Shown here: piece after piece, positions 4,218-44,232 of the stretch
Layout: every line of letters starts with the position of its first letter
Numbering within the stretch: the stretch's first letter is position 1
NCBI RefSeq assembly: GCF_001546455.1
Contig: NZ_KQ956813.1
Coordinates: 1 to 64,000, forward strand
DNA: 64,000 nucleotides
Direction: 5' to 3'
Source of the DNA: Gardnerella vaginalis
GTDB lineage: Bacteria > Actinomycetota > Actinomycetes > Actinomycetales > Bifidobacteriaceae
Notes under the pieces: generated by a model
Databases searched by the model: none
Told to the model about the DNA's origin: nothing
The model's input: only the letters and a program-made list of their open reading frames with translations
Made by a program: the position numbers and the translations under genes

Positions 4218-5942
4218 TTAAAGCCCTGCGTCTGCAAGAGTAACGTAGCCTGGGTCTATTAAAAGCGCCTTAAGATTTGTTGCACTAACTGCAAGAATAG
4301 TTTCAGTTGCCACTGGCACGTCTTTTTGAGGCCCATTATTGTTTACAAAAATGGTTACATCTTCTAGCTGTGTAATCTTTCCAGAAGTGTTTAACGAATT
4401 GCATTGTTCTGCAACATCTACAGAAATCTTTTGAATGTTTTCTATAGAAGTCATCCATTGTTTTCCGTTTACAAGATTAGGCAATGCATCTTTATATGCT
4501 CCGTAGCCAGTAATAATAGGCCATTTTGAATCGTTTACAACAGAGATTGCAGATTCGCTTTGACTATTCTGGCTGTTATCTTTGTTGCTATCTTGATTAT
4601 CTTTATTGTTTTTATTATTTTTACCGCTTTTGCCTGTTTTTTGGTTTGAAGAATTGTTATTTTTTGAATTAGAAGGAGCTGGAACTTTCTTTTTGCTTAA
4701 ATTACGCTTTCCAATAAAGTTTCCAATAATGTCTGGAAGGGTAAACGAAGGATTAATATCTGCAGAACTTCCTTTGTAACCAAGCTCTTCTAAAGCATTT
4801 TCTGCTTGCATAACAACTTGATCTTCTAGAGCAATAATGCCATCTACGTGTTTTGTTGAAGTTGCTTGATTGCTATTTTTTTCAATAAGTCTAAATTCAA
4901 GTTCTGCTTTAACAGAATCAGAATTATCCGCATCTATAGCAACGTTTTTCCAATCGTTTTCGGTGGAATTTTTGTTAAGCTTTCCAGAAGGAGAAAACAT
5001 TAGTCCAGATTCATAATATGGTTTTAAAACCTTCCAGATTCCTTCGAAGGCAAGTCTGGAAAATTCGTCATCAAAATCTGGAGTTTTGTACGAAGAATCT
5101 TCTGAATTTATTCCTCGTTTATTTATTCCAATGTGAAAATGAACATTTTGCTTTTGATTATGGCAAGGCAAAAGCACTTCTACACTTTTTGGATTATCTT
5201 TAGATGCTTGATTTAGAGCCAATTTTTGTACAAGAGTGTGAGCTTGAATCTCTCCGATTCTTTGAGCCGAAGAAAGGTTAAATAGAATATCTGGCTTAAA
5301 TCCATTGCTTAATCTAGAAAGCATAATAACGTGCATTCCAGCTTTTTTGGCAAGTTCTAAAGCGTTTGAAAGCCTATTTTCTGCTTCTTCTTGATTCTTT
5401 AAATCATCGTTCGATTGATTGGTGTTTGAATCTGGCTGTGTTACATAATCGCCATAATTATTATGTCCGTTTTTATTGCTCCAAGGTGCAACAACAATCG
5501 TTGTTTTTGAAAGTTGTTTTTTTACGCTATTTTGAAGGTTTTTAACGTTCGTTTTTGCGTTTTTACTTTTGAGCGATTTAGCAGAGTTATTGGAGTTTAG
5601 TGAAGTAATAGTGTTTACAACATAGTCTTGAATATCTTGACTTTGATTGTACAAGCTGTTAGAAGACTTGGTTGTGATTGCGTTGCTAGAAAATCCTCGC
5701 TTTTTTAGCGATTTTACTATTTCTGGAACAAGATTATCCCATGTGCTTAATGGCGTTTTTCTACTTAAATTTAGCCCGTCGGAAGGTGTGAAAATTATAA
5801 CGTTTCCGTGATTTACTTCAGACTTTGCGCTAGGCGACGCGTTTTGTACGCTAGATCCGCATGCGCAAATTGCAAAAAGCATTGTACTTGCTGCCAGAGC
5901 AGCAATAACTTTGCGCAAAATATGCTTATGCGTGCGAATCAT
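4218..5942 (-). CDS. Putative lipoprotein with a sugar-binding (type 1 periplasmic-binding) fold
   Basis: A 574-residue minus-strand protein. Its signal peptide ends in a lipobox-like LFAICAC followed by GSS, so lipidation at about Cys28 is likely. The remainder looks like a type 1 periplasmic sugar-binding protein: VIIFTPSDGLN at the start, AGMHVIMLSRL, RIGEIQAHTLVQKLAL, VDGIIALEDQVVMQAENAL and WPIITGYGAYKDAL are typical strand/helix elements of that fold. An Asn/Lys/Ser-rich low-complexity stretch (about residues 420-463) interrupts the second lobe. No permease or ATPase genes are adjacent, so if it serves an ABC transporter the partners are elsewhere. A receptor or adhesion role is also possible. 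The ligand is unknown. Confidence 0.72.
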   Translation of the reverse strand: MIRTHKHILRKVIAALAASTMLFAICACGSSVQNASPSAKSEVNHGNVIIFTPSDGLNLSRKTPLSTWDNLVPEIVKSLKKRGFSSNAITTKSSNSLYNQSQDIQDYVVNTITSLNSNNSAKSLKSKNAKTNVKNLQNSVKKQLSKTTIVVAPWSNKNGHNNYGDYVTQPDSNTNQSNDDLKNQEEAENRLSNALELAKKAGMHVIMLSRLSNGFKPDILFNLSSAQRIGEIQAHTLVQKLALNQASKDNPKSVEVLLPCHNQKQNVHFHIGINKRGINSEDSSYKTPDFDDEFSRLAFEGIWKVLKPYYESGLMFSPSGKLNKNSTENDWKNVAIDADNSDSVKAELEFRLIEKNSNQATSTKHVDGIIALEDQVVMQAENALEELGYKGSSADINPSFTLPDIIGNFIGKRNLSKKKVPAPSNSKNNNSSNQKTGKSGKNNKNNKDNQDSNKDNSQNSQSESAISVVNDSKWPIITGYGAYKDALPNLVNGKQWMTSIENIQKISVDVAEQCNSLNTSGKITQLEDVTIFVNNNGPQKDVPVATETILAVSATNLKALLIDPGYVTLADAGL

Positions 5943-5982
5943 AGTTAAAGCCTTTCGTAAATTTAGTTCTGTTTTTGCTTAT

Positions 5983-6012
5983 TTGTTAAAAAGTATTTAC
6001 TAAAAAGTATTT
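5983..6012. repeat. Short direct repeat in the fructosamine kinase-lipoprotein gap
   Basis: Two copies of a roughly 14-bp AT-rich unit (taaaaagtattt core) follow each other about 20-50 bp beyond the stop codon of the minus-strand gene at 6034-6840. It resembles the stop-proximal duplications elsewhere in the window but does not touch the stop codon. Confidence 0.6.
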
Positions 6013-6033
6013 GTTAAATTATCTAATACAAAT

Positions 6034-6840
6034 TCAGCGATTAAGCAAATCTAAGCACATGTCTCTATACTCGCTAACGTAGCCTCCACCAAAGAAAACA
6101 CAATGGCCAGCAATAGGGTAGAGTTGCCAAATTGTCATGCGATTTTCAAAACCAGATTTTAGTGGATGAACAGACTGGTAGCCGTCTAGAATCTGCTTAA
6201 AATAGCTGATTCCAAATAGGTGAAGCATTGATAAATCTTCTTCGCGGTGACCGCCGTGAGCTGCAGGGTCAATTAAAACAGCTTCTGTGTGTTCGCCATC
6301 TTCGCTTTTAGTCCAGAGTACGTTCCCGCTCCATAAGTCTCCGTGAACGCGCGCTGGTTTATCTTCAGCGGCTTTTCCAAGTAAATTTGGTAGAGCATCA
6401 ATAACTTTATTTGTAAGATCTAAATCGCTTTTTGTAAGGCTTCCCCTAGAAATACCAAGGTTTACCATTGGCAAAAGTCTGCCTTCTGCCAAATAGTCAA
6501 TAACGTTGTTCCAATCGCCGCAATCCATTTTTACTGGGTCACTTAGGGGGCCAAAATAGCATGTTCCATCATAGTCTGCTGGTGGTTCGCCAAAATATTT
6601 AGCGCCAAAATCGTGCATATGAGCCAAAGATGCTCCAAATTCAAACGCTGCTAGAGGAGTAGGGCTTGTAGTTTCAATGCGCTCAATGTTTAAATAGTCT
6701 TTTCCCCAGTCAAAGACCTTAGCAACTTTAGGCCCGCCGCAAGTATAAGCTTCACTAAGCCAATTAAGACCACGCCCCTCGCATTCAAAGAAGCGGTCTG
6801 GCGCATATGACCTGCTTTTTTTGTACACGTTATTACTCAT
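6034..6840 (-). CDS. Fructosamine kinase / aminoglycoside phosphotransferase-family protein
   Basis: A 268-residue cytoplasmic kinase-fold protein. The catalytic loop reads VHGDLWSGNVLW and the metal-binding motif IDPAAHGGHREEDLSML; both are diagnostic of the fructosamine-3-kinase/ketosamine kinase family, which phosphorylates protein- or amino-acid-bound ketosugars so that they can be removed. The N-terminal ATP lobe is short, as is usual in the family. A GTG 11 codons upstream keeps the frame open, but the ATG at 6840 has AGAGG at proper distance and gives the usual family start (MSNNVYKK). It lies between two other minus-strand genes with gaps of about 90 bp and may be co-transcribed with 6924-7352. 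The substrate is unknown. Confidence 0.87.
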   Translation of the reverse strand: MSNNVYKKSRSYAPDRFFECEGRGLNWLSEAYTCGGPKVAKVFDWGKDYLNIERIETTSPTPLAAFEFGASLAHMHDFGAKYFGEPPADYDGTCYFGPLSDPVKMDCGDWNNVIDYLAEGRLLPMVNLGISRGSLTKSDLDLTNKVIDALPNLLGKAAEDKPARVHGDLWSGNVLWTKSEDGEHTEAVLIDPAAHGGHREEDLSMLHLFGISYFKQILDGYQSVHPLKSGFENRMTIWQLYPIAGHCVFFGGGYVSEYRDMCLDLLNR

Positions 6841-26180: not shown

Positions 26181-27407
26181 ATGACGAACGCATTTTCTGA
26201 TTCTTCCAATCAAGTTTTTTCTCGTTGCGCAATTGCTCAATCGTTAGCAGGCAAAAGCGTGGTTACTTTAGATGATATTTCCACGGCACAGATACGAATG
26301 CTTTTAGATAAAGCGCGATACATTGATTCGCACAGAAAAGAAGTGGCCCACACTTGCGATGGCAGAGTGTTGGCCACTCTTTTTTATGAGCCGAGTACGC
26401 GCACGCGATTAAGCTTTGAAACAGCAATGCTTCGCTTAGGCGGCAAGGTGATTGGTTTTGCAGGCGCTCAGCTTTCTAGCGCAAGCAAGGGAGAAACAGT
26501 TAGCGACACGTTAAGAGTGGTGTCAAACTATGTAGACGTTGTAGCAATGCGTCACCCTAAGGAAGGCGCCGCTTTTGTAGCAACGCAAGCTGTGAGCACG
26601 CCAGTAATTAATGCTGGAGACGGCGGCCACATGCATCCTACACAAACCCTTGCAGATTTGGCAACTATTCTTGCGCGATTTGGCAGGCTTAACAATTTAA
26701 CAGTTGGGCTTTGCGGAGACTTAACGTACGGCCGCACAGTTCACTCGCTTATTGAAACTTTGTGCCGTTTTGGAAACGTTCATTTTGTGCTGATTAGTCC
26801 AGACGAGCTTAAAACTCCGCAATATGTTATTGATCGCATAAATGCAACCGAATCGTGCTCTTACGAGGAAACTCGCGACTTAATGGAAGTGATTGGCAGC
26901 TTGGACGTGCTTTACATGACTCGCGTGCAAGAAGAGCGTTTTACAGACAGAGATCAATATTTGCGACTTAGAGATACTTACATTTTGACGGAAGAAAAAT
27001 TGCAGAAAGCAAAGCCTAATACGGCTGTTCTTCACCCACTTCCTAGAATTAATGAGATTGCGGTTGACGTTGACGCGGATCCTCGTGCGGCATACTTTGA
27101 GCAGGTTAAAAATGGTATGCTTATGCGAATGGCGTTAGAAAGCTCGGTTCTTGGAGATGAGCTTTTGGGCTATGAGCCAACAGATTTTGTGAACGTTCCT
27201 AAAGACGAATCGCAAGCTTACGATGCCAGTGGAATTTCGCTGGCTAATCCTCGTGTTCATAAAGAAGATAAGAATGCGCCTAAAGATCTTAAATGCCCTA
27301 ATATTCGTTGCATAACAAATAGCGAATTAACATTAGTCAAAAAGTTCTATAAGGATGATTCTGGCTCAAATGTGTATCGCTGCTTGTATTGTGACGAAGC
27401 GGCATAA
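26181..27407 (+). CDS. pyrB: Aspartate carbamoyltransferase catalytic chain fused to the PyrI zinc domain
   Basis: 408 residues instead of about 310. The catalytic part (about 20-330) is complete: FYEPSTRTRLSFETAM (carbamoyl phosphate site), MHPTQTLADLATI, MTRVQEERF and HPLPRINEIAVDVDADPRA. It condenses carbamoyl phosphate and aspartate. After a linker (about 330-370) comes KCPNIRCI and YRCLYCDEAA, i.e. Cys372, Cys377, Cys401 and Cys404. This matches in type and spacing (5, 24, 3) the zinc site of the E. coli regulatory chain PyrI (Cys109, 114, 138, 141), the part that contacts the catalytic chain. The nucleotide-binding domain of PyrI is absent and no separate pyrI lies in the operon. The start is ATG after the hairpin leader. 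First gene of pyrB-pyrC-pyrF-pyrK-pyrD-pyrE. Confidence 0.94.
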   Translation: MTNAFSDSSNQVFSRCAIAQSLAGKSVVTLDDISTAQIRMLLDKARYIDSHRKEVAHTCDGRVLATLFYEPSTRTRLSFETAMLRLGGKVIGFAGAQLSSASKGETVSDTLRVVSNYVDVVAMRHPKEGAAFVATQAVSTPVINAGDGGHMHPTQTLADLATILARFGRLNNLTVGLCGDLTYGRTVHSLIETLCRFGNVHFVLISPDELKTPQYVIDRINATESCSYEETRDLMEVIGSLDVLYMTRVQEERFTDRDQYLRLRDTYILTEEKLQKAKPNTAVLHPLPRINEIAVDVDADPRAAYFEQVKNGMLMRMALESSVLGDELLGYEPTDFVNVPKDESQAYDASGISLANPRVHKEDKNAPKDLKCPNIRCITNSELTLVKKFYKDDSGSNVYRCLYCDEAA

Positions 27408-27425
27408 GCTGATTAGAATTTGGCA

Positions 27426-27460
27426 TAAAATAATCTAAAATAATTTAAAATAACTTAAAA
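27426..27460 (+). repeat. 10-bp tandem array between pyrB and pyrC
   Basis: Three and a half units of TAAAATAAYY (27426-27435, 27436-27445, 27446-27455, then TAAAA). It begins about 18 bp after the pyrB stop. It lies upstream of the pyrC Shine-Dalgarno (TAGGAG). Confidence 0.8.
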
Positions 27461-27482
27461 CCTTGAGCGAACTAGGAGTAAC

Positions 27483-28895
27483 ATGAATAACTCTCGAACC
27501 TTAACTTTGCAAAATATTGCAGTTTGGGATACTAGCGAGCGCATCGATTTAATCGTAGATGGTGTGCGTCAAGATGCTTTAATAGAGCCAAATGCGCGGA
27601 TTGATGGCGAAATTGATGCAAGCGATTGGATTGTTGCTCCTGGTTTTGCCGATCCACACGTGCATTTTAGGGATCCTGGGCAAACAGATAAGGAGACGAT
27701 GACAACTGGCGGCAATGCGGCTGCTGCAGGTGGCTACACGCAGGTTTTGATTATGCCAAATACGATTCCTGCAGTTGACGGCGAGCCTTGGAATGATGCT
27801 CCTTTTGATGTAGAAAATGTGATTGATTACTTGCAAAGATACGGTTGTATCTACGGCGTAAAACTGCCAGTTCGCTACGATTTAAGCGTTTGCGCATCTG
27901 TTGGCAGAAGTGGACTTGAGCCTAGCAATGTTAATCTGTGGAAAAAGTATGTTCCTGGAGTCGAAGATAGTCAAAAAACGTCTCCAATGAAGAAGCATCC
28001 TGTAACTGCTATTAGCGACGATGGTGCTGCGGTTCCAGAGCCGATTTTGCAAGACGTTCTAAAAATCGCAAAGCAAACGGGCTTGCCTTTTGTTGAACAT
28101 TGCGAGCATCATGATTCTGGTTCTGTAAACGAAGGGCCAGTGGCTAAAATTTTAGGCGTTGGCGGAATTCCTGCTTCTACGGAACTTGCGATTGTTAAGC
28201 GAGATATTGATGCTGCAAGAGTTAGCGGCGTTCATGTTCACTTCCAGCATGTGAGTACTGCGGCTGCGTTTGAGGCAATTCGCAAAGCAAAGAAGGAAGG
28301 TTTGCCCATTACTTGCGAAACAGCTCCGCACTATGTTGCTCTTTGTGATGAAGATGTTTTAAAGTATGGCGCTAATGCAAAGATGAATCCTCCGCTTAGA
28401 TCTAAAGCAGATAGGCAGGCGACTCTTGCTGCAATCGCAGATGGAACTATAGACATGATTGCAACGGATCATGCTCCGCACACAGCTGCAGATAAGGCTG
28501 GCGATTTTGCGAGCGCACCTAATGGCATTATTGGCCTAGAATGTGCTTATGCGGTTTGTAGAAAAGTTCTTGTGGATGCAGGTTATACAGACGATAAGCA
28601 TTTAATTGAACTCATGTCTGTTAATCCTAGACAATTAATGAGTAGGCGTTCTACAGATATTTCGGCTTTGCTAAATGTGTCTTCAAAATGCGCGCTTCGT
28701 CGCACGTTGCGATTAAGCAACACGGAACACCCAGAAAACGTTGACTTAGTGCTGATTAACATGAGTGAAAAGTGGAGTGTAGATTCGAACTTGTTCCATT
28801 CGAAAGCTAGAAATACGCCATTTGACGGCTGGCAATTAAAGGGCAGGCCAGTGGCAACTATTATTGGATCGCAAATTGCGTTTTCTAGAATGTAG
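27483..28895 (+). CDS. pyrC: Dihydroorotase
   Basis: A 470-residue type I dihydroorotase of the amidohydrolase superfamily; it closes carbamoyl-aspartate to dihydroorotate. The metal motif ADPHVHFRDPGQTDKE is at about 57-72. VEHCEHH, HVHFQHVST and ATDHAPHTAADK supply the remaining His/Asp ligands, and GIIGLECAYAV follows. It starts at ATG after CTAGGAGTAAC. About 40 residues longer than many homologues because of an insert near 155-175 (PGVEDSQKTSPMKKHP). Second gene of the pyr operon. Confidence 0.95.
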   Translation: MNNSRTLTLQNIAVWDTSERIDLIVDGVRQDALIEPNARIDGEIDASDWIVAPGFADPHVHFRDPGQTDKETMTTGGNAAAAGGYTQVLIMPNTIPAVDGEPWNDAPFDVENVIDYLQRYGCIYGVKLPVRYDLSVCASVGRSGLEPSNVNLWKKYVPGVEDSQKTSPMKKHPVTAISDDGAAVPEPILQDVLKIAKQTGLPFVEHCEHHDSGSVNEGPVAKILGVGGIPASTELAIVKRDIDAARVSGVHVHFQHVSTAAAFEAIRKAKKEGLPITCETAPHYVALCDEDVLKYGANAKMNPPLRSKADRQATLAAIADGTIDMIATDHAPHTAADKAGDFASAPNGIIGLECAYAVCRKVLVDAGYTDDKHLIELMSVNPRQLMSRRSTDISALLNVSSKCALRRTLRLSNTEHPENVDLVLINMSEKWSVDSNLFHSKARNTPFDGWQLKGRPVATIIGSQIAFSRM

Positions 28896-28958
28896 TTGCG
28901 CATTTAATCAAGCATATTCGTAAGTTGTAGTTGTAAAAATATAGAAAATGGGAGCAAA

Positions 28959-29993
28959 ATGGACGAGTTAGTAGAAGCGATTGCAGCCAAGCAAAATCCT
29001 ACGGTTGTTGGCTTAGACCCAAAGCTTGGTATTTTGCCTGCACAAATTTTAAGCGGCTTAGCGGATGAAGTTTTGCAAGAGGTGGAAAGTGAAGAGGCTT
29101 TGCCAACTTTGCTTGCTGCCGCCTATTTTGAGTTTAATCGTGCAATTATTGATGCGATTTGCGATATTGTTCCAGCTGTTAAGCCACAAATTGCAATGTA
29201 CGAGGCGCTTGGCCCTGCTGGAATCGACACATACACAATGACTTGCGATTACGCTAAATCCAAAGGTTTAATCGTTATTGGAGATGCAAAGCGTGGAGAT
29301 ATTGGCTCTACTGCAGGCCAATACGCGGCACATTTGCGAGGTTTTGCTAATCTTGACTCGTATTTTAAAGATGATTCTTATAATTTTGACGAGTCTTTGG
29401 TTAATCTTCTTAAAACTGCTAGCGCCAAGGATTTTTGGCATGAGGATTCGCTTACCGTAAATCCATATATGGGTTCGGATGGCGTTGAGCCTTTTATAAA
29501 CGAAGCAATTGCGCGCAATAAAAGCATTTTTGTGCTTTTGCGCACATCTAATCCTTCTAGCAAAGAGTTGCAAGAGCTTGTTGTGGAAGACAATAGGCCA
29601 CTTTACGAGCATGTTGCTGAGTTGATTGAAAACTGGGGTGCTTCAAACGTTGGAAATCACGGATATTCTAGAGTTGGGGCAGTGGTCGGAGCAACGCATC
29701 CGCAAGAAGGCCAGCATTTGCGCGAAATTATGCCACATACTTTCTTTTTGGTCCCAGGCTACGGAGCGCAAGGCGGAACAGCTCAAGATGTTGCTGGAAT
29801 GTTTGATAAAGATGGAAGTGGTGCTATAGTAAACTCTTCTCGCGGGATTATTGGCTCTTGGAAGAATTGTGAATCGTATAAAAAGCATGAATCTTCGATT
29901 TCTTTAGATGACATTCTAGATATTGTTGCAGATTCTTCTGCTCGCGCGGCTATTAATATGCGAGATGATTTACGTCAGGCGGTTTATAGGTGA
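28959..29993 (+). CDS. pyrF: Orotidine 5'-phosphate decarboxylase, catalytically intact copy
   Basis: A 344-residue type 2 OMP decarboxylase that converts OMP to UMP. The catalytic D-x-K-x-x-D motif is intact in IGDAKRGDIGSTA (D109, K111, D114). GLDPKLG, VKPQIAMYEALGPAG, VNPYMGSDGVEPF and FLVPGYGAQGGTAQDV match the family. It is somewhat longer than typical (about 280-310). The start is ATG after GGGAGCAAA. It lies between pyrC and pyrK. A second, degenerate homologue is encoded at 42606-43505. The stop codon begins an imperfect 20-bp duplication. Confidence 0.95.
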   Translation: MDELVEAIAAKQNPTVVGLDPKLGILPAQILSGLADEVLQEVESEEALPTLLAAAYFEFNRAIIDAICDIVPAVKPQIAMYEALGPAGIDTYTMTCDYAKSKGLIVIGDAKRGDIGSTAGQYAAHLRGFANLDSYFKDDSYNFDESLVNLLKTASAKDFWHEDSLTVNPYMGSDGVEPFINEAIARNKSIFVLLRTSNPSSKELQELVVEDNRPLYEHVAELIENWGASNVGNHGYSRVGAVVGATHPQEGQHLREIMPHTFFLVPGYGAQGGTAQDVAGMFDKDGSGAIVNSSRGIIGSWKNCESYKKHESSISLDDILDIVADSSARAAINMRDDLRQAVYR

Positions 29994-30031
29994 ATATAGC
30001 TAAATAAATGTGAATATAATCTATAAATAAT
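29990..30031 (+). repeat. Imperfect 20-22 bp tandem duplication at the pyrF stop
   Basis: GTGAATATAGCTAAATAAAT (29990-30009) is followed by a diverged copy starting GTGAATATAATCTATAAATA (30010-30031). The first copy contains the pyrF stop TGA at 29991-29993. Confidence 0.75.
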
Positions 30032-30113
30032 AACAAGTTACAAATTACAAGCGAAAATACATAAATAAAGCTAAACAAATAAAGTTACACACTAAACAAG
30101 ATAGGGCAAATAC

Positions 30114-30998
30114 ATGAGAGATGGCATGTTTATTCAAACTCAAAAATCTTCCAGAAGCGTTACAACTACGCTGAGTGAAAGCTCTTTTGACTATTCGAAT
30201 GAGGAGTCCAGCAAGCCCAAATATAGCCGTCTTTTAGGAAGGCGCCCAATAGAAGTGCTTGATAATCAAAAGCTTGACGAAGGTGTGTACCGCTTAGTTT
30301 TACGCGATGATGCTATTGCTAAAACGGCAACTCCTGCGCAATTTGTTAACTTGTATTCCCCAGATTCTACAACTATGCTTCCTCGGCCATTTGGCGTTGC
30401 AAGCGTTGATGGAGATACATTTACTCTTATTTTTGCTGTGATTGGTAAGGGCACTGCCGAGTTTGCGCAGCTTAAAGCAGGAGATACTGTAGACGCTTTA
30501 GGACCATTAGGATTGGGCTTTGATATTTCTAAGCCGGCTCACTATGTTCTTGTAAGCGGAGGATTAGGTGTTCCTCCTTTGATTTGCGCGGCGCAGGCTA
30601 TTTCAAAGAATAAGAATTGCAAGGTTACGGCAGTTCTTGGATACAGAGATAATCATTTTGCTGACTCATTTATGAAGGAATACGTTGATAACGTTTATAG
30701 CATTAGCAATACGCAAGGTACGGTTATTACTTTGCTTAATGAGCTAGAGCAAGAAAATCATTTTGATTTTAATGGCGATTTGCCTACTGTTATTCTTTCT
30801 TGCGGGCCAATGCCAATGATGAAAGCTGTAGCTCATTGGGCACATGAGCGTAATGTTAAATGTCAGCTAAGCTTAGAAGCCAGAATGGGTTGCGGATATG
30901 GCACTTGTGTTGCTTGTGTTGTAGACACATTAGAAGGAAGACTTAAGGTTTGCAACGAAGGCCCAGTATTTGACTCACAGAGATTGGGATGGGAATAA
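30114..30998 (+). CDS. pyrK: Dihydroorotate dehydrogenase electron-transfer subunit
   Basis: A 294-residue PyrK. It carries FAD and a [2Fe-2S] cluster and passes electrons from PyrD's FMN to NAD+. The FAD motif is LPRPFGVAS, the NAD-binding core YVLVSGGLGVPPLICAAQ, and the cluster motif C-x4-C-x2-C-x11-C sits in ARMGCGYGTCVACVVD and KVCNEGPVF. Its presence shows that PyrD here is the class 1B, NAD-dependent type. The N terminus is about 40 residues longer than usual and the Shine-Dalgarno is modest (AGGGC), so a later start is possible. It is followed by pyrD 10 bp downstream. Confidence 0.94.
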   Translation: MRDGMFIQTQKSSRSVTTTLSESSFDYSNEESSKPKYSRLLGRRPIEVLDNQKLDEGVYRLVLRDDAIAKTATPAQFVNLYSPDSTTMLPRPFGVASVDGDTFTLIFAVIGKGTAEFAQLKAGDTVDALGPLGLGFDISKPAHYVLVSGGLGVPPLICAAQAISKNKNCKVTAVLGYRDNHFADSFMKEYVDNVYSISNTQGTVITLLNELEQENHFDFNGDLPTVILSCGPMPMMKAVAHWAHERNVKCQLSLEARMGCGYGTCVACVVDTLEGRLKVCNEGPVFDSQRLGWE

Positions 30999-31008
30999 AG
31001 GAAAGAAT

Positions 31009-31992
31009 ATGAGCAACGAAACAAATAACGCTTTAGAAAACGCGAAAAATAATGCGCAAAATCTTGGATTTGACACAAGCCACGTTTGGAAGCATTCAAC
31101 TAAAGTTGCAGGCGTTGAGTGGAAAAATATGGTTGGAACAGCGTCTGGAACGTTCCAGCTTGCAGCTTGCGCGCACTTTTACGATGTAAGCCAGCTTGGA
31201 GCAATTTGCACTAAGGGAGTTTCTCCAGTTCCATGGCAAGGAAATCCTGCTCCGCGCACTGCGGAATCGCCTTCTGGAATGGTAAATGCTGTTGGCTTGC
31301 AAAATCCTGGAGTTGACCACTATTTAGTAGACGAGCTTCCAAAGTTAAAAAAGCTGGGAGCGCTTGTGATTACTAACGTTGCAGGCCACAGTGACGATGA
31401 TTATGCTCAAGTTGTTGAAAAGCTTGCGGATTCCTCGGCAGACATGCTGGAGATTAATGTTAGCTGCCCGAATGTAACTCATGGTGGCATGAGTGTGGGA
31501 ACAGACCCTGTGGCTCTTCATCGCTTAATTAAGCGACTTCGCGCAATGACAAACAAGCCAATGATTGTAAAAATGACGCCAAATGTTACAGATATTGTAT
31601 CGATTTGCAAGGCTGCTGTTGACGCTGGAGCGGATGCTTTAAGTATGATTAATACGCTGGTTGGTTTGCGTATTGATATTAAAACGGGCGAGCCGATTAT
31701 TGCAAACCGAACGGGCGGTGTTTCTGGCCCTGCAATCTTCCCAATTGGGCTTGGATTTGTTTGGCGAGTTCGTCAAGCTATGCCAGATATTCCAATCATT
31801 GGTATTGGAGGCATTGATTCTGGAGAGAAAGCTTTGGAATACTTGTATGCTGGCGCTAATGCTGTAGAAGTAGGGGCTGCGGCTCTTGTGGATCCTACTG
31901 CTCCAATTCGCATTGCGCGCGAGTTGGATGATTTGCTTGATTCTAGGCCAAAGCTTGCGTCTTTGCTTAAAGAAGGCAAAACTTGGCGCTAA
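31009..31992 (+). CDS. pyrD: Dihydroorotate dehydrogenase, catalytic subunit (class 1B)
   Basis: A 327-residue FMN enzyme that oxidises dihydroorotate to orotate, paired with PyrK. Motifs are VGTASGTF, TKGVSPVPWQGNPAPR, NAVGLQNPGVDHY, EINVSCPNVTHGG (active-site Cys region), VKMTPNVTDI, ANRTGGVSGPAIFPIGL and IIGIGGIDSG. The chosen ATG 31009 follows AAAGGAAAGAAT; an in-frame TTG at 30970 overlaps pyrK and has no site. A 14-bp perfect duplication covers its last codons and stop. Confidence 0.95.
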   Translation: MSNETNNALENAKNNAQNLGFDTSHVWKHSTKVAGVEWKNMVGTASGTFQLAACAHFYDVSQLGAICTKGVSPVPWQGNPAPRTAESPSGMVNAVGLQNPGVDHYLVDELPKLKKLGALVITNVAGHSDDDYAQVVEKLADSSADMLEINVSCPNVTHGGMSVGTDPVALHRLIKRLRAMTNKPMIVKMTPNVTDIVSICKAAVDAGADALSMINTLVGLRIDIKTGEPIIANRTGGVSGPAIFPIGLGFVWRVRQAMPDIPIIGIGGIDSGEKALEYLYAGANAVEVGAAALVDPTAPIRIARELDDLLDSRPKLASLLKEGKTWR

Positions 31993-32008
31993 TAACTTGG
32001 CGCTAATA
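31981..32008 (+). repeat. Perfect 14-bp tandem duplication across the pyrD stop
   Basis: ACTTGGCGCTAATA occurs at 31981-31994 and again at 31995-32008. The first copy encodes the last three residues (Thr-Trp-Arg) and contains the stop TAA (31990-31992). The copies are identical. Confidence 0.95.
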
Positions 32009-32070
32009 AGTAAAAATAAGTAAATAGGATTTGCTAATAAGGTTTTACTAAATTTAATAAGGAGAATATT

Positions 32071-32763
32071 ATGGCACAATTACACGAGGATTTTACAAAG
32101 TTTTTGCTTGATTCAGGCGCACTTAAATTTGGTGATTTTACGCTTAAGTCTGGTCGCCAATCGCCTTACTTTATTAACGCTGGAGCTTTTGATGACGGCA
32201 GTAAAATCGCTTCTCTTGGCGATTATTACGCTCAAAGAATTGTTGCTGCAATCAAAGATGGTGTTCTTTCTAGCAATATCGATACGGTTTTTGGTCCTGC
32301 ATATAAAGGCATTCCTTTGGCTGTTTCTACGTCTATTGCTTTAACTAATAATTACAATATGCCAGTTGGTTTTACTTTTGACAGAAAAGAAAGAAAAGAC
32401 CATGGCGATGGCGGAATGATGGTTGGAAAGCCGCTAAAAGACGGTATGAAAGTGCTGCTAGTTGACGACGTTATGACTGCTGGAACCGCAGTTCGAGAAG
32501 TCTTGCCAAAGCTTAAAGCAGAAGCAGATGTGGAAGTTGTTGGCTTGATTTTGGCAGTGGATAGAATGGAGCGCACTAAAGATAGTGAGCTTTCTGCAGT
32601 AAAAGCAGTAGAGCAAGAGTTTGGATTCCCAGTGCTTCCAATTGCAAACGTTCGTGAGATTTTTGATGCTGCTAAGAGCATTAGTAATGCAAACGGCGAA
32701 GCTGTAATGAATCAGCAGTTGGCAGATCGCGCTGCTAAATATCTTCTTCAATATGGCGCTTAA
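32071..32763 (+). CDS. pyrE: Orotate phosphoribosyltransferase
   Basis: A 230-residue type I phosphoribosyltransferase that makes OMP from orotate and [18 protein letters not shown] is at the N terminus, [13 protein letters not shown] and [17 protein letters not shown] follow, and the PRPP loop is [17 protein letters not shown]. The start ATG follows AAGGAGAATATT. It is the last gene of the operon, which ends in a long inverted-repeat terminator. A 13-bp duplication spans its stop codon. Confidence 0.96.
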
Positions 32764-32858: not shown

Positions 32859-35417
32859 TTAGTTTTTCTTTAAAACAAAGGTTGCAATTCCAGCAATTGC
32901 AACAACAAATACAGCTAATGCACCAATCATTAGTACATTCGTATTCTTATTTGAAGAAGCTGGTTTTGCACTAGAGCTGTTATTTTTTAGTGCGCTCTTC
33001 TTTTTGTTTACGCTTTTGCTTGAATCTTCATCTTTAGAATTGTCTTCCTTAGAATAATTTTCTTTAGAATCATTGCTTTGCAAATCTTTGGAATCAGCCT
33101 TATTGCTGCTTGAGTTGCTGCTTGGCTCGGTTTGCTTCTTATTTTCTGCAGTTTTATTGGCGATTTCTGCTTTGTAAGAAGTATCCTGATTTTCTTGTTG
33201 CGATTGAGCTGATTCTTCAGTCTTAGCTTCTACAGTCTTAGCTTCTGCAACTTTAGAAGGCTCTGCAGCATATGCCTTTGCAGCGTATGTTTTTGCAGCA
33301 GCACTAGCTTGATAATAACTGCTATAACTGTAGTCATTTTGATTGAACGCAGCTAATAATCTATATAACCTGAGCAAACTGTAACCAGAATCAGAATCCA
33401 AATTAGATTCAGAATCCGAATTAGAGTCCAAAGATTCATCTGCACTAGGCTCAACAACGTTTGAACTTTCCGTTTGAGTGCTTTGAGTTTTAACAGTTGT
33501 TTTAACAGTCAAATTAAAATCTTTATTTAAATCAAGACCTGTTAAATCTGAGTTAAAAGCAGATTCACCATTGTTCCAAGCTGTAACTATTTCATCTTGT
33601 AAGCCAAGTAGTGTAGCTAATTTTTTGTTTGCATTTTCTTTATCTAGATTTCGGAAGTCAACTATTTTGCTGTCTTTATCTTGGCAATTAACAATTGCAT
33701 CAACAAAATTATTCTTTCCATTTGTATTAACCAAGCAACTAATACTAGCCTCGCCGTGCTTTATTGCAGCCATAAAGTATCCGCGTAAGAATCTTCTCGG
33801 GGCATTACTTTCGCTTGGGTTTGCGTTATTTTTTATTAATTCTTCTGCACTATTTGAGAATCCATCTTTTTTGATACGAAGATTTCCATCTTGTGCGCTT
33901 GCTTCTTTCCAAATATCAGTAAGTGCAGAAAGATTTGTTTGCGTAAGGTCAACTCCAGATGGAATAGTAATATCATCGATTTTGCTGCCGCCAAACATGT
34001 TCCTAACGCCGTTATTTGATGAACCAGTTTGACCATTAAGAGCCTGCGTTAAATCCCACTTAGAAATATCTAGCGAAGTTACCGAAGAGTTTGCAAACAT
34101 ATCGTTCATATCTGTTGCGCTAGAAGTGTTCCATTTTTCGATTCCTGGTATTTGCGTTAAATTAGTAGTATTTGAAAATGCTTTTCCCATATTCCAAACA
34201 TTTTTTGTATCCCAATTTTCTAAGCCAGTTATCTTTTTAACGCCACTGTTTTCAAAAAGGCCAACAATGTTTCCAACGTAGGAAGTTTTCCATTTTCCAA
34301 GATTAGCTTCTTTAAGTGAGGTTGTTCCAGTAAACATTCTGCCAATGTCGTTAGTGTTGCTAATATCCCAATTTTCAAGCGCTTTAATGTCTTCTAGCTT
34401 GTTGGCGTTCATAAACATTCTTCCCATTGAAGCAAGATGGTCGTTTGTAAACACTTCTAGGCCTTCGGTAGTTGTTAATCCGCTTTCTGCAAACATTCCA
34501 GTTGCTTCATCGCAGTAGGTGTTGTCCCAAGTAATTCCCTTAACGTTTGAAAGATTCTTTGCTTGGTAGAACATGTTGCTCATATGATGAACATTGCGAG
34601 TTTTAAAGTTTCTAATGCCGTCTGCAGATTCAATTGCGCCGCCTTCAAACATGCTAGTCATGTCTGTAACGTTGCTAGTGTTCCACTTTTCGTCTAATCC
34701 GTGAACTGTGCGCAAATTTTTTGTGTTTCTAAACATTAGTTGCATGTTTTCAACGTTGCTAACATCCCAGTTAGATATTGGATTTATGCTGCTTATTCCG
34801 CTATCTTCAAACAGGCTGCTCATATCTGTTACGCGGCTTGTATCCCAGTCTTTAGTTCCATTAATATTTTTTAACTTAGGATTTGAAGAAAACATTCCAG
34901 ACATATCTTCTACATTAGAAGTGTCAAATAAATCCAAATTATTTATTGTTTCTAGATTTGCAAAGTTTGAAAACAGTTTGCTAGCACCGTTTCCTAGTTG
35001 GATTTTTCCAGCATTTTCAGTTTGATCGCCTGATTGAACAATATTTATGACTTTGACTTTAGATGTATCAAGATTTACGCCATCTGGATTGTTATTATTA
35101 GACGAAATAATCTTTTCAATTGAGTTAGATGCAAAATCTGTTCCGTTAATTTTTGATATTTCAAGAGTATTGGTGGATTCGTCAAACTTCCACTTTAGCC
35201 CAGTAGGAGTTGGGTCAAAGAATCCCCGATATTTTGCTTCATGCCAAGTGTTTAGTGTATCGTCTTTGTTTTCTTTGTTTTCTGGATTAGTCGCAACAGA
35301 TTCCTTTTGCTGCGTTGACCCTGTGTTTAATTCTTCGCTAGCAATGGCTTGCTGAGTTGGTATTAATGAGCAAATCATTGCTGCACATGCGCAAGATGCG
35401 AATATATGTTTCTTCAT
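32859..35417 (-). CDS. BspA-like (DUF285) repeat surface protein
   Basis: 852 residues. A signal peptide (about 1-26, cleavage after QQAIA) precedes about 12 repeats of roughly 25 residues with the pattern W-D-T-S-N-V-T-D-M-S-x-M-F (about 95-440), the DUF285/BspA type found in mycoplasma and mucosal-bacterial surface proteins. A non-repeat domain (about 440-640) follows, then Asp/Ser-rich, Ala/Lys-rich and Ser/Lys/Glu-rich spacers and a C-terminal transmembrane helix (VLMIGALAVFVVAIAGIATF) ending KKN. No LPxTG is seen before the helix, so anchoring looks membrane-based rather than by sortase. BspA-like proteins bind host proteins; an adhesin role here is inferred. The start has AGAGGA. It is monocistronic and convergent with pyrE. 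Confidence 0.87.
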   Translation of the reverse strand: MKKHIFASCACAAMICSLIPTQQAIASEELNTGSTQQKESVATNPENKENKDDTLNTWHEAKYRGFFDPTPTGLKWKFDESTNTLEISKINGTDFASNSIEKIISSNNNNPDGVNLDTSKVKVINIVQSGDQTENAGKIQLGNGASKLFSNFANLETINNLDLFDTSNVEDMSGMFSSNPKLKNINGTKDWDTSRVTDMSSLFEDSGISSINPISNWDVSNVENMQLMFRNTKNLRTVHGLDEKWNTSNVTDMTSMFEGGAIESADGIRNFKTRNVHHMSNMFYQAKNLSNVKGITWDNTYCDEATGMFAESGLTTTEGLEVFTNDHLASMGRMFMNANKLEDIKALENWDISNTNDIGRMFTGTTSLKEANLGKWKTSYVGNIVGLFENSGVKKITGLENWDTKNVWNMGKAFSNTTNLTQIPGIEKWNTSSATDMNDMFANSSVTSLDISKWDLTQALNGQTGSSNNGVRNMFGGSKIDDITIPSGVDLTQTNLSALTDIWKEASAQDGNLRIKKDGFSNSAEELIKNNANPSESNAPRRFLRGYFMAAIKHGEASISCLVNTNGKNNFVDAIVNCQDKDSKIVDFRNLDKENANKKLATLLGLQDEIVTAWNNGESAFNSDLTGLDLNKDFNLTVKTTVKTQSTQTESSNVVEPSADESLDSNSDSESNLDSDSGYSLLRLYRLLAAFNQNDYSYSSYYQASAAAKTYAAKAYAAEPSKVAEAKTVEAKTEESAQSQQENQDTSYKAEIANKTAENKKQTEPSSNSSSNKADSKDLQSNDSKENYSKEDNSKDEDSSKSVNKKKSALKNNSSSAKPASSNKNTNVLMIGALAVFVVAIAGIATFVLKKN

Positions 35418-37848: not shown

Positions 37849-37884
37849 AATCCGCTTGCTTAAAAAGTAGGCGGATTTTTGTTT
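37849..37884 (+). terminator. Terminator after efp-nusB
   Basis: AATCCGC (37849-37855) pairs with GCGGATT (37871-37877), with a partly paired loop, followed by TTTTGTTTT. Confidence 0.82.
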
Positions 37885-37962: not shown

Positions 37963-39177
37963 GTGGGCTATAACGACACCTTCGCCGGATTCGGCACTGA
38001 TGATGCAGTATTAGTATTGGAAGACGGGCAGGTTTACGTTGGTAAACCATTTGGCGCAAAAGGTTCTACACGCGCTGAAATCGTGTTTTCTACTGGAATG
38101 ACTGGTTACCAAGAAACACTTACCGATCCAAGTTATGATCAACAAATAGTGGTTCAAACGTTCCCACACATAGGAAACACTGGAATAAACAACGAAGACC
38201 CAGAATCTTCAAAAATATGGGTTGCGGGGTACGTGGTAAAAGCTCCAAGCCCTAATGTTAGCAATTGGAGAGCCACTGGTTCATTGGAAGATGATTTAGA
38301 AAAACAAGGTATTGTAGGAATCAGTGGTATTGATACAAGAATGCTGGTACGACATTTACGCTCAGTTGGCGTTATGCGTGCTGGCATTTTTTCTAATGAT
38401 GCACTTATAGATAAAACCACTGGCGCAATTCGTACGGTTGCATCTTTTGTAAATGAGATTAAACAGACTCCTCAAATGCAAGGCTTGCGACTAACCGACG
38501 AAGTTAGCACAAAAGAGACGTATACGATTGAGCCTTGTGGAGATTATGAAGGCAAAGAGCCGCTTTACACCGTCGTAGCAGTGGACTTTGGTATAAAAGC
38601 AATGACTCCTCATCGCTTGGCTCAGCGTGGCTGCCGAGTACACGTTGTAAGCTCCTCAATAAGCTTTGAGTCGCTTCAAGCGCTTAACGCAGATGGCGTG
38701 TTCTTCTCGAATGGCCCTGGAGACCCTGCTCAGGCAAATCGCGAAGTGGAATTATTGCGCAATGTGCTAGACGCTGGCTACCCGTTCTTTGGAATATGCT
38801 TTGGAAACCAGTTGCTTGGCCGAGCGCTTGGCTTTGGAACGTACAAGCTTAAGTTTGGTCACCGTGGCGTAAATCAGCCTGTAAAAGACGTGACCACTGG
38901 AAAAGTGGAAGTTACGGCTCACAATCATGGTTTTGCTGTAGATGCTCCTATTGGCGAGACTGTTGAATCGCCCTACGAAAATGGCCATTTTGGTCGCGTA
39001 ATAGTGTCTCACGTAGATCTTAACGACAATGTTGTAGAAGGATTGCAATGCCTTGATATTCCAGCTTTCTCTGTGCAATATCACCCAGAAGCAGCCGCAG
39101 GGCCTCACGATGCATCGTACTTGTTTGACCGCTTTGTAGAACTTATGCAAAATCACAAGAATAAGAGCGAAAAATAG
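37963..39177 (+). CDS. carA: Carbamoyl-phosphate synthase small (glutaminase) subunit
   Basis: A 404-residue CarA. It hydrolyses glutamine and channels ammonia to CarB. The N-terminal domain has the CarB-contacting [14 protein letters not shown]. The class I amidotransferase domain carries the nucleophile Cys in [12 protein letters not shown] and the His-Glu pair in [13 protein letters not shown]. It starts with GTG, spaced 7 nt from GGGGG. carB follows 29 bp later. Confidence 0.97.
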
Positions 39178-39206: not shown

Positions 39207-42200
39207 ATGCCAAAACGTGCTGATATTAAGTCTGTAATGGTGATTGGTTCTGGCCCAATTGTAATTGGTCAGGCTGCAGAATTCGATTATTCGGGAACGC
39301 AGGCTTGCCGAGTGCTTCACGAAGAGGGAATCCGCGTAATCCTTGTAAACTCTAATCCAGCTACGATTATGACGGATCCAGAACTTGCGGATGCAACATA
39401 CATTGAGCCAATAGACACAGCAATCTTAGAGCGCATTATTGCTAAAGAGAAGCCAGATGCGCTTCTTCCAACATTGGGCGGCCAGACGGCATTAAATGCT
39501 GCAATGGATTTAGGCAAAGCAGGAATACTAAAAAAGTACAATGTGGAGCTTATTGGCGCATCTCTTGAAGCAATTGACCGTGGCGAAGATCGCGAGCTTT
39601 TTAAGAAAGTCGTAGAAAAAGCTGGAGCGGAAAGCGCAAAATCTTTTATTGCTCACTCAATCGAAGAAGTAGATAAAATCGTTGAATCGCTTGGATACCC
39701 AGTAGTAGTACGCCCAAGCTTTACAATGGGCGGCCTCGGCTCTGGAATTGCGCATAATCAAGAAGAATTGCACCGCATTGCGGGAGCTGGAATCCATTAT
39801 TCTCCAACAGACGAAGTGCTTATTGAAGAAGGCATTGAAGGCTGGAAGGAATTTGAGCTGGAGCTTATGCGAGACTCCAAAGACAACGTTGTTGTTGTTT
39901 GCCCAATCGAAAATGTTGACCCTGTAGGCGTTCACACGGGCGACTCGATTACAGTTGCACCTTGCTTTACGCTAACAGATCGCGAGTATCAAAAGATGCG
40001 CGATATTGGCATTGCGATTATTCGAGGCGTAGGCGTTGATACAGGCGGATGCAATATTCAGTTTGCAATCAACCCTAAGACTGGTCGCATAATCGTAATC
40101 GAAATGAATCCTAGAGTTTCGCGATCTTCGGCTCTGGCATCTAAAGCAACTGGATTCCCGATTGCAAAAATCGCAACAAAACTTGCGCTCGGCTACACTT
40201 TGGATGAAATTCAAAACGATATTACGCGTTCAACTCCTGCAAGCTTTGAGCCAACAATCGACTACGTTGTAACAAAGATTCCACGTTTTGCATTTGAAAA
40301 ATTCCCTGGAGCAGATACTACGCTTACAACGTCTATGAAGTCAGTTGGCGAAGCTATGGCTTTGGCTGGAAACTTCCAGGAGTCTCTTGGAAAAGCAATG
40401 CGCTCAATCGACAAGCGCCACGCGTGCTTTAACTGGGATGGCGAGCGCCCGAGCAAAGAAGAAGTTAATAGACTTCTTGAAGAAATGCATACGCCAACAG
40501 AGCATCGCTACTTGCAAATTCAGCGAGCTCTTTGGGGTGGAGCAACTCCAGAGCAGATTTTTGCGGCAACAAAGATTGACCCGTGGTTTGTTGAGCAGCT
40601 TTCGTTAATTAACAAAACGGCATTAGAGGTTCGTGAAGCAGAAAATTTGACACCAAAAGTCTTGAAGAGCGCTAAGCTTGCAGGCCTTTCGGATGTTCAG
40701 ATTGCGCATTTGCGTAACCTTGGCGACGAAGGCGAGAACATGGTTCGCGAGCTTCGTTGGGCGTATGGATTGCATCCTGTTTACAAAACGGTTGACACTT
40801 GCGCTGCAGAGTTCGATGCTGTAACGCCTTACTACTATTCTTGCTACGCTCAAGAAAGTGAACTTAAGCCGCGCAATCGCGAAGCTGTGATTATTCTTGG
40901 ATCTGGTCCAAACAGAATTGGCCAGGGTATTGAGTTTGACTACACGTGCGTGCACGCTGTGCAGGAATTGGGCAAGGATTACGACACCATTATGGTTAAT
41001 TGCAATCCTGAAACGGTTTCTACAGACTACGATATGTCGGATCGTCTTTACTTTGAGCCTCTTACTTTCGAAGACGTGCTTGAGATTTATCAAGCAGAAA
41101 AGAAGCTTGGCCCAGTTAAAGGTGTGATTGTGCAGCTTGGTGGTCAAACTCCACTTTCGCTTGCGGCTCGTCTTAAAGCTGCTGGAGTTCCAATTTTGGG
41201 TACTACGCCTGAGGCCATTGATTTGGCGGAAAATCGTGAGCTTTTTGGCGAGGTTCTTCGCCAAGAAGGCATGAACGCTCCGCGATACGGCACGGCTTTA
41301 AGCCTTGAAGAAGCTAAAGATGCTGCTCACGCAATCGGTTACCCTGTTCTTGTGCGACCAAGCTACGTGCTTGGTGGGCGAGGAATGGAAATCGTGTATG
41401 ACGATGCTCAGCTTGCAAAATACGTGGATCGCGCTTTGCAAGAAGCTCGAGCAGATACCGTTGTGTCTGGCCGCTTGCCTTCGCCTCTTTTGATTGATAA
41501 GTTCCTGCAAGACGCTATTGAGATTGACGTTGATGCTCTTTACGACGGCAATGAGCTTTATATTGGCGGCATTATGGAGCATGTTGAAGAGGCTGGTGTG
41601 CACTCTGGCGATGCTGCTTGCACGCTTCCTCCAAGCACGCTTTCCGACGATCAAATTCGCCGTCTTAGGGAGGGCACGCTTTCGATTGCTCAAGGCTGCT
41701 CGGTTCGCGGTCTTATTAACGTGCAATACGCTTTTATGGCAAACACTTTGTATGTAATTGAGGCAAATCCTAGAGCGTCTAGAACTGTTCCGTTTGCTTC
41801 TAAAGCTACAGGTGTTGCTCTTGCTAAAGCTGCTGCTCGAATTATGGCTGGAGAGACAATTGCACAGCAGCGAAAGCGCGGGCTGCTTCTTCCAAAGGGA
41901 GATGGTGGAGATATTCACCCAGGCCAGCAAGTTGCGATTAAGGCTTCTGTACTTCCATTTAAGCGTTTCCGCACGCCTGTTGGTCGCACAGTTGACATTT
42001 TGCTTGGCCCAGAAATGCGCTCTACTGGAGAAGTTATGGGCTTTGACCGTGACTTCCCGCATGCTTTTGCCAAGAGTCAGCTTGCTGCATACAAGGGCGG
42101 TTTGCCTACAAGCGGCAACGTGTTTGTGTCGGTAAGCGATGCGGATAAAAGGCAATTGCCTCTTCTTGCAGTGCGTCTTGTGGAGCTTGGATTTACAATT

Positions 42201-42602
42201 TGGGCTACAGAAGGTACAGCATCTGTGCTTCGCCGCTACGGCATTGATTCCGTGATTGTTGACAAGCTTTCAAGCCAAGGCGACACGGCGAAGGATGTAC
42301 GAAATGCTGAGACTGCTCACGAAAGAATCGGCAAAAACGTGGTTGAGCTGATTGAAAATGGTAAGATTGACATGGTGTTAAACACGCCGAATTCCAGAGG
42401 GTCGCGTACGGATGGTTATGCTATTCGTGCAGCTGCTGTTGCAGCAGACCTTCCGCAGTTCACTACGATTACGGAGTTTGCACCAGTTCTTATGGCTATA
42501 GAAGCCGTTAAGAACAACGATTACCAGGTGATGAGCATTCAGGAGCATGCCAAGCAACTGTTTGCAATCGAAAAGGCAGAAAACGAAGAAAGTCGGGCTT
42601 AA
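39207..42602 (+). CDS. carB: Carbamoyl-phosphate synthase large subunit
   Basis: A 1131-residue CarB with two homologous ATP-grasp halves that make carbamoyl phosphate from bicarbonate, ammonia and two ATP for pyrimidines and arginine. [19 protein letters not shown] and [20 protein letters not shown] begin each half. [14 protein letters not shown] and [17 protein letters not shown] are the phosphate loops, and [20 protein letters not shown] and [20 protein letters not shown] bind metal. The C-terminal MGS-like allosteric domain ([20 protein letters not shown]) is intact. The start ATG follows AAAGGAATTTATA. Confidence 0.98.
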
Positions 42603-42605
42603 TAC

Positions 42606-43505
42606 ATGACCGAAAGCATACGAGAGCAGGAACTGCAGGCGCAAAGATCTGATTTTGGATTGCGTCTAAAAAACGCTATGGCAAAGTATGGGCCATTATG
42701 CGTTGGCATAGATCCACACCGCAAAATGCTGCTTAATTGGGGATACAATATGGACGCTCAAGGAGCAGAATTGTTCTCCATGCGTATGCTTCAAGCCATG
42801 AATGGCAGGGCTGCTGCCGTAAAATTCCAATCAAGCATGTTCGAGCGCTACGGGTCTAAGGGATTTGCGGCGCTCGAGCGAGTGCTTTATGCTGCAAGGC
42901 AAATGGACGTAATCACTATTGTTGATTGCGGTCACGGCGGGTTGTCTACAACAATTTCTGCTCTAGCAGACGCTTATTTTAAGCCTGGAGCACCTCTTCT
43001 TACAGATGCAATTACACTTCTTCCGTATTACGGCGCTAGGTCTATGGGCGGGCTTATTAATGAAGCTCTTAATAATGGCAAGGGCGTATTTATTGCTTCT
43101 TTAACGTCTAATCGAGAAGGCGCAAGCTTGCAAACAGCAATTCGCCAAACGGGTTCCTATCGAGGCACAACTGTTGCTCACGGTATTGCTCAAACTGCGC
43201 AAACTTTTAACAACAATACAAAAGGCATGGGTTCTGTTGGATTGATTGTTGGAGCAACTATTGGCGATTGGATGAATGGCGGTGGAATAGACTTAACAAG
43301 TTTTACTGGCCCTATTCTTTCGCCAGGCTACGGCTGGCAAGGTGCGGAGGCTAACGACTTAAAAACCGTTTTTGCAGGCACTCACGGAAACGTTTTGGTA
43401 ACAGTTTCTAGATCCATTGCTTCGCATGGACCAGATATTGGAGCATTATCTGCTGCAACCGAACGAATTGCGTGGGATATTCGTCAAGCTTTGATGGATT
43501 CTTAA
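42606..43505 (+). CDS. Degenerate orotidine 5'-phosphate decarboxylase homologue
   Basis: 299 residues, 3 bp after carB. Clear type 2 OMP decarboxylase fold: LCVGIDPHRKML, AAVKFQSSMFERYGSKGFAA, GVFIASLTSNREGAS, GLIVGATIGDW and ILSPGYGWQGAEANDLK match the family and the intact PyrF at 28959-29993. The catalytic D-x-K-x-x-D motif, however, reads IVDCGHGGLS: the Asp (D107) stays, but the catalytic Lys is Gly109 and the second Asp is Gly112. Decarboxylation is therefore unlikely. The position (carB-pyrF-gmk) is the normal actinobacterial pyrF locus. The reading frame is full length and the rest is conserved, so it is not simply decaying; a binding or regulatory role is possible but unproven. Confidence 0.88.
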   Translation: MTESIREQELQAQRSDFGLRLKNAMAKYGPLCVGIDPHRKMLLNWGYNMDAQGAELFSMRMLQAMNGRAAAVKFQSSMFERYGSKGFAALERVLYAARQMDVITIVDCGHGGLSTTISALADAYFKPGAPLLTDAITLLPYYGARSMGGLINEALNNGKGVFIASLTSNREGASLQTAIRQTGSYRGTTVAHGIAQTAQTFNNNTKGMGSVGLIVGATIGDWMNGGGIDLTSFTGPILSPGYGWQGAEANDLKTVFAGTHGNVLVTVSRSIASHGPDIGALSAATERIAWDIRQALMDS

Positions 43506-43617: not shown

Positions 43618-44232
43618 ATGATTAGTACAGACGAGAATCAGGGTGTAACCGCCAAAAAAAGGCGATTAATTGTTCTTACCGGCCCTACTGCTGCTGGAAA
43701 AGGAACAGTCGAGGGGTTTTTGCGCGAAAAACACCCTAATATCTGGCTTTCTGTTTCTGCAACTACTCGTAAGCCTCGCTATGACGAGTTTAATGGCATT
43801 CATTATTGGTTTATTGACGAAGAAGAGTTTGCTAGAAGGCAAAAGAACGGTGAATTCTTAGAGACGGCTCTTGTTCATGGAATGGCTCATTATGGCACTC
43901 TTCTTAAGCCTGTTTTAGATCACCTTGCGCAGAATGTTCCAACTCTTCTAGAGATTGATCTTCAGGGAGCTAGACGAGTAAAGCAGGAATCTTCTAGACT
44001 CGGCCTAGAAGTGGTATATGTATTTATTGCGCCTCCTAGCTTCGAGGAGCTTAAGCGTCGTCTTATTGGCAGGGGAACAGAAACACCACAGCAGCAAGCT
44101 AAGCGATTGCAAACCGCAAAAGTAGAAATGGCTGCTGCAAGTGAGTTTGATTTTGTTATTGTTAATGATGATGCTCAAAGAGCAGCGGATGAACTTTGGA
44201 AGATAATCGCTAAAGAATACGATTTAGATTAA
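43618..44232 (+). CDS. gmk: Guanylate kinase
   Basis: A 204-residue GMP kinase. P-loop VLTGPTAAGKGTVEG, the GMP-binding SVSATTRKPRYDEFNGIHYWF (two Arg, Tyr), LLEIDLQGARRV and RLIGRGTET (lid Arg) are present. It makes GDP for nucleic acids and (p)ppGpp. It starts with ATG after AAGTGAG. In Mycobacterium an mihF gene (integration host factor) lies between pyrF and gmk; the 112-bp gap here has no such frame. A 10-bp tandem array begins in its last codons. Confidence 0.96.
   Translation: MISTDENQGVTAKKRRLIVLTGPTAAGKGTVEGFLREKHPNIWLSVSATTRKPRYDEFNGIHYWFIDEEEFARRQKNGEFLETALVHGMAHYGTLLKPVLDHLAQNVPTLLEIDLQGARRVKQESSRLGLEVVYVFIAPPSFEELKRRLIGRGTETPQQQAKRLQTAKVEMAAASEFDFVIVNDDAQRAADELWKIIAKEYDLD

Follow-up and report, generated by a model that had tools for sequence, protein, structure and literature searches.

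The stretch of DNA analysed here (the window) comprises 64,000 nucleotides of a Gardnerella vaginalis contig (NZ_KQ956813.1) and carries two homologues of the OMP decarboxylase (OMPDC) PyrF. One of them is intact and lies within a pyrimidine operon. The other, called pseudo-PyrF in the following, sits between carB and gmk. The features of the two loci are:

26181-32763, + strand: pyrB(I)-pyrC-pyrF-pyrK-pyrD-pyrE operon housing the intact pyrF, in which the identities of pyrC and pyrE are our assumption
28959-29993, + strand: intact operon pyrF, with DAKRGDI at 29283-29303; a separate PyrF lineage
37963-39177, + strand: a gene that we take to be carA, its family being recognised from the translation
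39207-42602, + strand: carB, immediately 5' of pseudo-PyrF (ORF list, synteny)
42606-43505, + strand: pseudo-PyrF, a class-2 PyrF homologue of 299 aa, predicted to be catalytically dead (ORF call, profile matches, alignment)
42822-42824, + strand: Lys73, the first Lys of the catalytic tetrad, kept (alignment)
42924-42944, + strand: altered catalytic motif DCGHGGL, residues 107-113, with G109 in place of Lys and G112 in place of the second Asp (alignment)
43335-43337, + strand: Trp244, beside the ligand-binding Gln245; aromatic in all pseudo copies (alignment)
43618-44232, + strand: gmk (guanylate kinase, Gmk), immediately 3' of pseudo-PyrF and fused to it in relatives

The pseudo-PyrF reading frame opens with an ATG 3 nt past the carB stop and closes 112 nt before gmk, and its product in the window is a chain of its own, unfused to Gmk. 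There is no riboswitch at the locus, the sole RNA element in the window being one tRNA, and promoter-like sites near it are not above chance. A terminator-like hairpin with 13 pairs and a T run lies at 37849-37877, ~85 nt 5' of carA.

Pseudo-PyrF is a clear member of its family. It matches TIGR02127 (pyrF_sub2) with 205 bits (cut-off 110.6) and PF00215 (Pfam OMPdecase) with 48 bits (threshold 27), and its nearest solved structure is the S. avermitilis enzyme 3v75. The claim of a preliminary description of this DNA that the fold is kept agrees with the AlphaFold2 model (pLDDT 86, pTM 0.88), which is predicted to adopt the TIM-barrel OMPDC fold and, compared with the PDB, matches OMP decarboxylase structures, with 3v75 at the top (TM 0.87/0.91). 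Confidence drops at the altered loop, where pLDDT falls below 50 over residues 112-115.

OMP decarboxylase is a textbook case of catalytic power. The DxKxxD motif that serves as criterion for a functional enzyme has been reported for OMPDC from all organisms (PMC12874384). Pseudo-PyrF reads DCGHGGL at this point, against DAKRGDI in the 28959 copy; the difference had been pointed out in the preliminary description and is confirmed with one refinement, namely that the first Asp (D107) is kept and only the Lys and the second Asp have become Gly. In an alignment of 83 carB-locus sequences from 82 genomes (the window gene enters twice), both residues are missing from every sequence: the position of the catalytic Lys holds Leu (67), Gly (8), Met (5), Val (2) or Ser (1), and that of the second Asp is Gly in 83/83, which rules out chance or a sequencing error as the source of the change. 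Misalignment masking a Lys is also ruled out, since residues 101-121 are free of Lys in 105 distinct sequences and no realignment can therefore supply one. Could OMP decarboxylation persist through a rearranged site? The tetrad retains its first Asp and its first Lys, and the curated PyrF model accepts the protein. However, the yeast OMPDC mutants K93A and D96A have no detectable activity and K93C shows a >10^8-fold drop (PMC12874384), pseudo-PyrF offers no substitute Lys, and the operon copies have an intact motif in 56/56 cases, all of which makes persistence very improbable. By analogy with these mutants of other OMP decarboxylases, the loss of OMP decarboxylation by pseudo-PyrF is strongly supported.

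The gene is kept by Gardnerella and most bifidobacteria. A contig scan covered 77 named family members (Gardnerella, Bifidobacterium, Pseudoscardovia, Scardovia and other Bifidobacteriaceae), and the closest sequence to the pseudo-PyrF of the window is that of Gardnerella piotii (99%). No internal stop occurs in any of the carB-locus copies listed for 151 Bifidobacteriaceae genomes, and 82 copies were read full length. In these ~82 genomes with the gene, the order is carB-X-gmk in every case where the contig piece retrieved includes both neighbours, several of the pieces stopping short of a recognisable carB end. Each listed genome with a pseudo copy has two PyrF matches, and several genera have the operon copy while the pseudo copy is absent. 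In such genomes carB adjoins gmk, or unrelated genes sit between the two, which rules out an equivalent gene replacing pseudo-PyrF; in one of them (L300) the intervening ORF, at 5659-6684, is amidohydrolase-like by eye. In the genus g4, also of this family (L083-L086), the only PyrF is intact and is not located next to carB; in L083 its neighbours are presumably a trp/dapF-like block on one side and a trpA-like gene on the other.

Selection on the two copies was compared by dN/dS (Nei-Gojobori) in 22 species pairs. The median is 0.033 for the pseudo copy (range 0.01-0.1) and 0.084 for the operon copy, and the former is the lower in 19/22 pairs (Wilcoxon p 3e-5), some dS values above 1 being saturated, which adds uncertainty and leaves the direction in closer pairs unaffected. 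In 14 pairs picked to limit overlap, the same comparison gives p 0.0012. Compared with other Gardnerella, the pseudo copy of the window shows 94-99% identity and the operon copy 76-90%. Judged by the dN/dS ratios, purifying selection acts more strongly on pseudo-PyrF than on the intact PyrF of the operon, and together with the intact frames these ratios rule out decay into a pseudogene. A milder form of the same idea, in which a redundant relic decays slowly and is retained only by its translational coupling to gmk, might draw on the redundancy of its catalysis with the operon copy and on the clean deletion of the gene in some lineages. Translational coupling, however, would leave the amino-acid sequence unprotected, and the low ratios, the stop-free listed copies and the new invariant residues described below leave this relic hardly credible. 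Pseudo-PyrF is thus very probably a selectively retained pseudoenzyme, and the earlier proposal that it serves a role other than decarboxylation stands, on the strength of its low dN/dS.

The origin of the two copies can be traced through their relatives. In other Actinomycetales, 30/30 loci encode a single PyrF whose D-x-K-R-G-D motif is intact, in most cases next to carB and/or gmk. Pseudo-PyrF is therefore this PyrF, passed on by vertical descent and inactivated a single time. A tree of 89 sequences unites the pseudo copies in one clade (99), which falls within the carB-locus group of Actinomycetales and neighbours the intact PyrF of g4, a family member without an operon copy; the operon copies cluster with sequences from other classes of the phylum (100). 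The tree is a quick one and some of its branches are long (g4 and L082, the latter a carB-locus copy of another genus), which leaves the exact sister of the pseudo clade less secure than the main split. Since all pseudo copies fall into one clade, there is no need to invoke a separate loss of the motif in each species. The signs that the preliminary description had named as speaking against it are absent, as the locus shows no frame disruption, no alternative Lys and, inside the clade, no intact motif; intact relatives at the carB locus are found only outside the family, where they represent the ancestral state.

The operon copy is ~27% identical to the carB-locus copy and lies on a different branch, which rules out a recent duplication. 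Its best matches beyond the family are 41-54% identical in other classes and ~30-35% in Actinomycetales, a pattern consistent with horizontal gain of the operon pyrF. With its motif intact in every genome examined, it is the likely catalyst, as the preliminary description had held in stating that catalysis has passed to this copy. Relative to the carB-locus copy it bears a ~30-residue insertion at residues about 120-160. Elsewhere in the operon, pyrB (26181-27407) has a C-terminal PyrI metal-binding domain (PyrI_C, 37 bits) on the same chain, and the PyrI nucleotide-binding domain was not detected in it.

Pseudoenzymes often scaffold or heterodimerise with active partners. Every listed genome with a pseudo copy also has an operon copy, and OMPDC active sites are shared between two subunits (PMC12874384), both of which would suit a scaffold or heterodimer partner of the active operon PyrF. 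Such a pairing is nevertheless improbable, given the low identity of the copies, the separation of their lineages before the family arose and the several genera in which the operon copy does without a pseudo copy.

The ligand site is remodelled, not decaying. Apart from the lost pair, the pseudo copies keep the first Asp (83/83), the tetrad Lys, Thr, Gln and Arg (82/83 each) and Ser (78/83), and the phosphate, ribose and base contacts outside the motif (D36, K73, T116, S168, P240, Q245 and R269) are kept in 78-82 of the 83. Paired by motif and given in the numbering of the human enzyme (PMC12631982), the kept residues would equate to D259, K281, D312, T321', S372, Q430 and R451, while K314 and D317' would be the counterparts of the two that are lost. 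Because the residues kept include the phosphate contacts and most of those to ribose and base, pseudo-PyrF probably still binds a nucleoside 5'-monophosphate. Loss of the second Asp, a ribose contact in OMPDC, and the changed pocket residues may have altered the affinity for, or identity of, this ligand, or abolished its binding. Nor is ligand binding universal, for L082 has lost the tetrad Lys, Gln and Arg as well (K73 to Glu, Q245 to Asp, R269 to His) with its frame kept.

Within this pocket, position 244 is Trp in 81 and Tyr in 2 of the 83 pseudo copies, as against Ala in every intact enzyme aligned, and further positions have switched between the pseudo copies and the intact enzymes (F74, C108, G112, L113, T115, Y142 and A164). 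These distinct conserved positions, combined with the retained phosphate and ribose residues and very strong purifying selection, might point to a neofunctionalised enzyme, whose pocket (Lys changed to Leu or Gly, Asp to Gly, with new Trp, Tyr, Phe and Cys) runs another reaction on a nucleotide-like phosphate. However, no new conserved acid or base makes up for the lost pair, C108 being Ser or Gly in some pseudo copies and H110 varying among His, Arg and Gln, and the loop concerned is the poorly predicted one. A new catalytic activity is therefore unlikely.

An in-frame fusion of pseudo-PyrF to a complete Gmk, through a low-complexity linker, is present in 21/77 named genomes (among them B. 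goeldii, B. biavatii, B. callitrichos, B. reuteri and B. ramosum), the two genes being adjacent elsewhere. Mapped on the tree of the pseudo domain, the fusion state changes 5 times, and at least 3 of these changes (gain or loss) are forced by well-supported branches. In 78/78 scanned loci gmk lies inside the fetched flanks, and its P-loop is kept in 78/78. In the AlphaFold2 model of one fusion protein, the two domains are not confidently packed against each other, and with a low-confidence linker and a pTM of 0.59 the model predicts no domain interface. The recurrent fusion is suggestive of a functional link with Gmk, although it may also be read-through devoid of functional meaning, since neighbours fuse easily. 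Lineages without pseudo-PyrF keep gmk, so Gmk does not need it and any partner role is non-essential. On this genomic evidence Gmk can be named as the partner only tentatively, as a possibility somewhat short of an even chance.

The preliminary description had mentioned CarB as a possible partner. A regulatory or structural subunit of CarAB in place of Gmk, for example one passing UMP status to carbamoyl phosphate synthesis, would fit the position of the gene, directly behind carB in the window and close behind it in most relatives. But this adjacency is ancestral and common to active PyrF, carB is kept in lineages lacking pseudo-PyrF, and no fusion to carB was found, compared with 21 to gmk. 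CarB is thus less likely than Gmk as the partner, and a CarAB subunit is a rather improbable reading.

The explanation that best accommodates the whole, put forward with reserve and at somewhat less than even confidence, is a pseudoenzyme that has kept the ability to bind a nucleoside monophosphate and exerts its effect through guanylate kinase or on it. The ancestral actinobacterial order carB-pyrF-gmk was inherited vertically, and an ancestor of most Bifidobacteriaceae came to carry a second PyrF within a pyrBCFKDE operon, making the old copy at carB redundant. In the latter the catalytic Lys and the second Asp were lost a single time, turning it into a pseudoenzyme, which may bind UMP, OMP or a purine nucleotide (for instance XMP) and leave it unconverted. 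Gmk, as adjacent gene product or in the same polypeptide, could read the bound state, and the effect would be to tie the GMP-to-GDP step to the supply of pyrimidines. Human OMPDC binds XMP at ~200 nM and does not bind GMP, and a pyrimidine-purine crosstalk was suggested by the authors (PMC12631982). By analogy, a dead OMPDC tied to Gmk could exploit binding of the XMP type as a sensor. Taken to its full extent, the proposal would make the OMPDC barrel a nucleotide-sensing subunit or domain of Gmk across the family, with the new aromatic residues binding UMP, OMP or a purine monophosphate and tuning GDP formation. This broader form is doubtful; if true, it would constitute a direct switch of the pyrimidine-purine balance, not previously described.

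With class 2 OMPDC (TIGR02127; 3v75) pseudo-PyrF shares family, fold, the carB-pyrF-gmk locus and most ligand residues, and it differs in lacking the second Lys and second Asp of the tetrad and in its remodelled pocket with a new Trp at the Gln loop. It resembles metabolic pseudoenzymes in the loss of the motif, the kept fold, the presence of an active homologue and its conservation (reviews: PMC10211241, PMC5106787). Fusions of the UMP synthase type (OPRT-OMPDC, Leishmania 3qw4) likewise join an OMPDC fold to another nucleotide enzyme, whereas the partner here, guanylate kinase, belongs to purine metabolism and the motif marks the OMPDC domain as inactive. A search of the open-access literature returned no OMPDC-family pseudoenzyme, no pseudoenzyme joined to guanylate kinase and no earlier description of the Bifidobacterium pyrF-gmk fusion. 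The family thus offers a natural series of dead, retained OMPDCs tied to Gmk in major human gut and vaginal bacteria, in which to study the role left to the OMPDC fold once catalysis is gone, as well as a possible direct link between purine and pyrimidine synthesis.

In the B. breve TraDIS study most pyrimidine genes are essential, and its main text is silent on the pseudo-PyrF gene (PMC5514069). Databases probably mislabel pseudo-PyrF as active. Its score lies far over the curated PyrF cut-off, so that automatic annotation can misjudge which copy makes UMP, and metabolic models, essential-gene lists and pyrF/5-FOA selection schemes are liable to be misled in the same way.

Adjoining pyrE, at 32859-35417 on the - strand, lies the gene for a probable surface protein of 852 aa, which carries DUF285 repeats and has a hydrophobic stretch at the C-terminal end.
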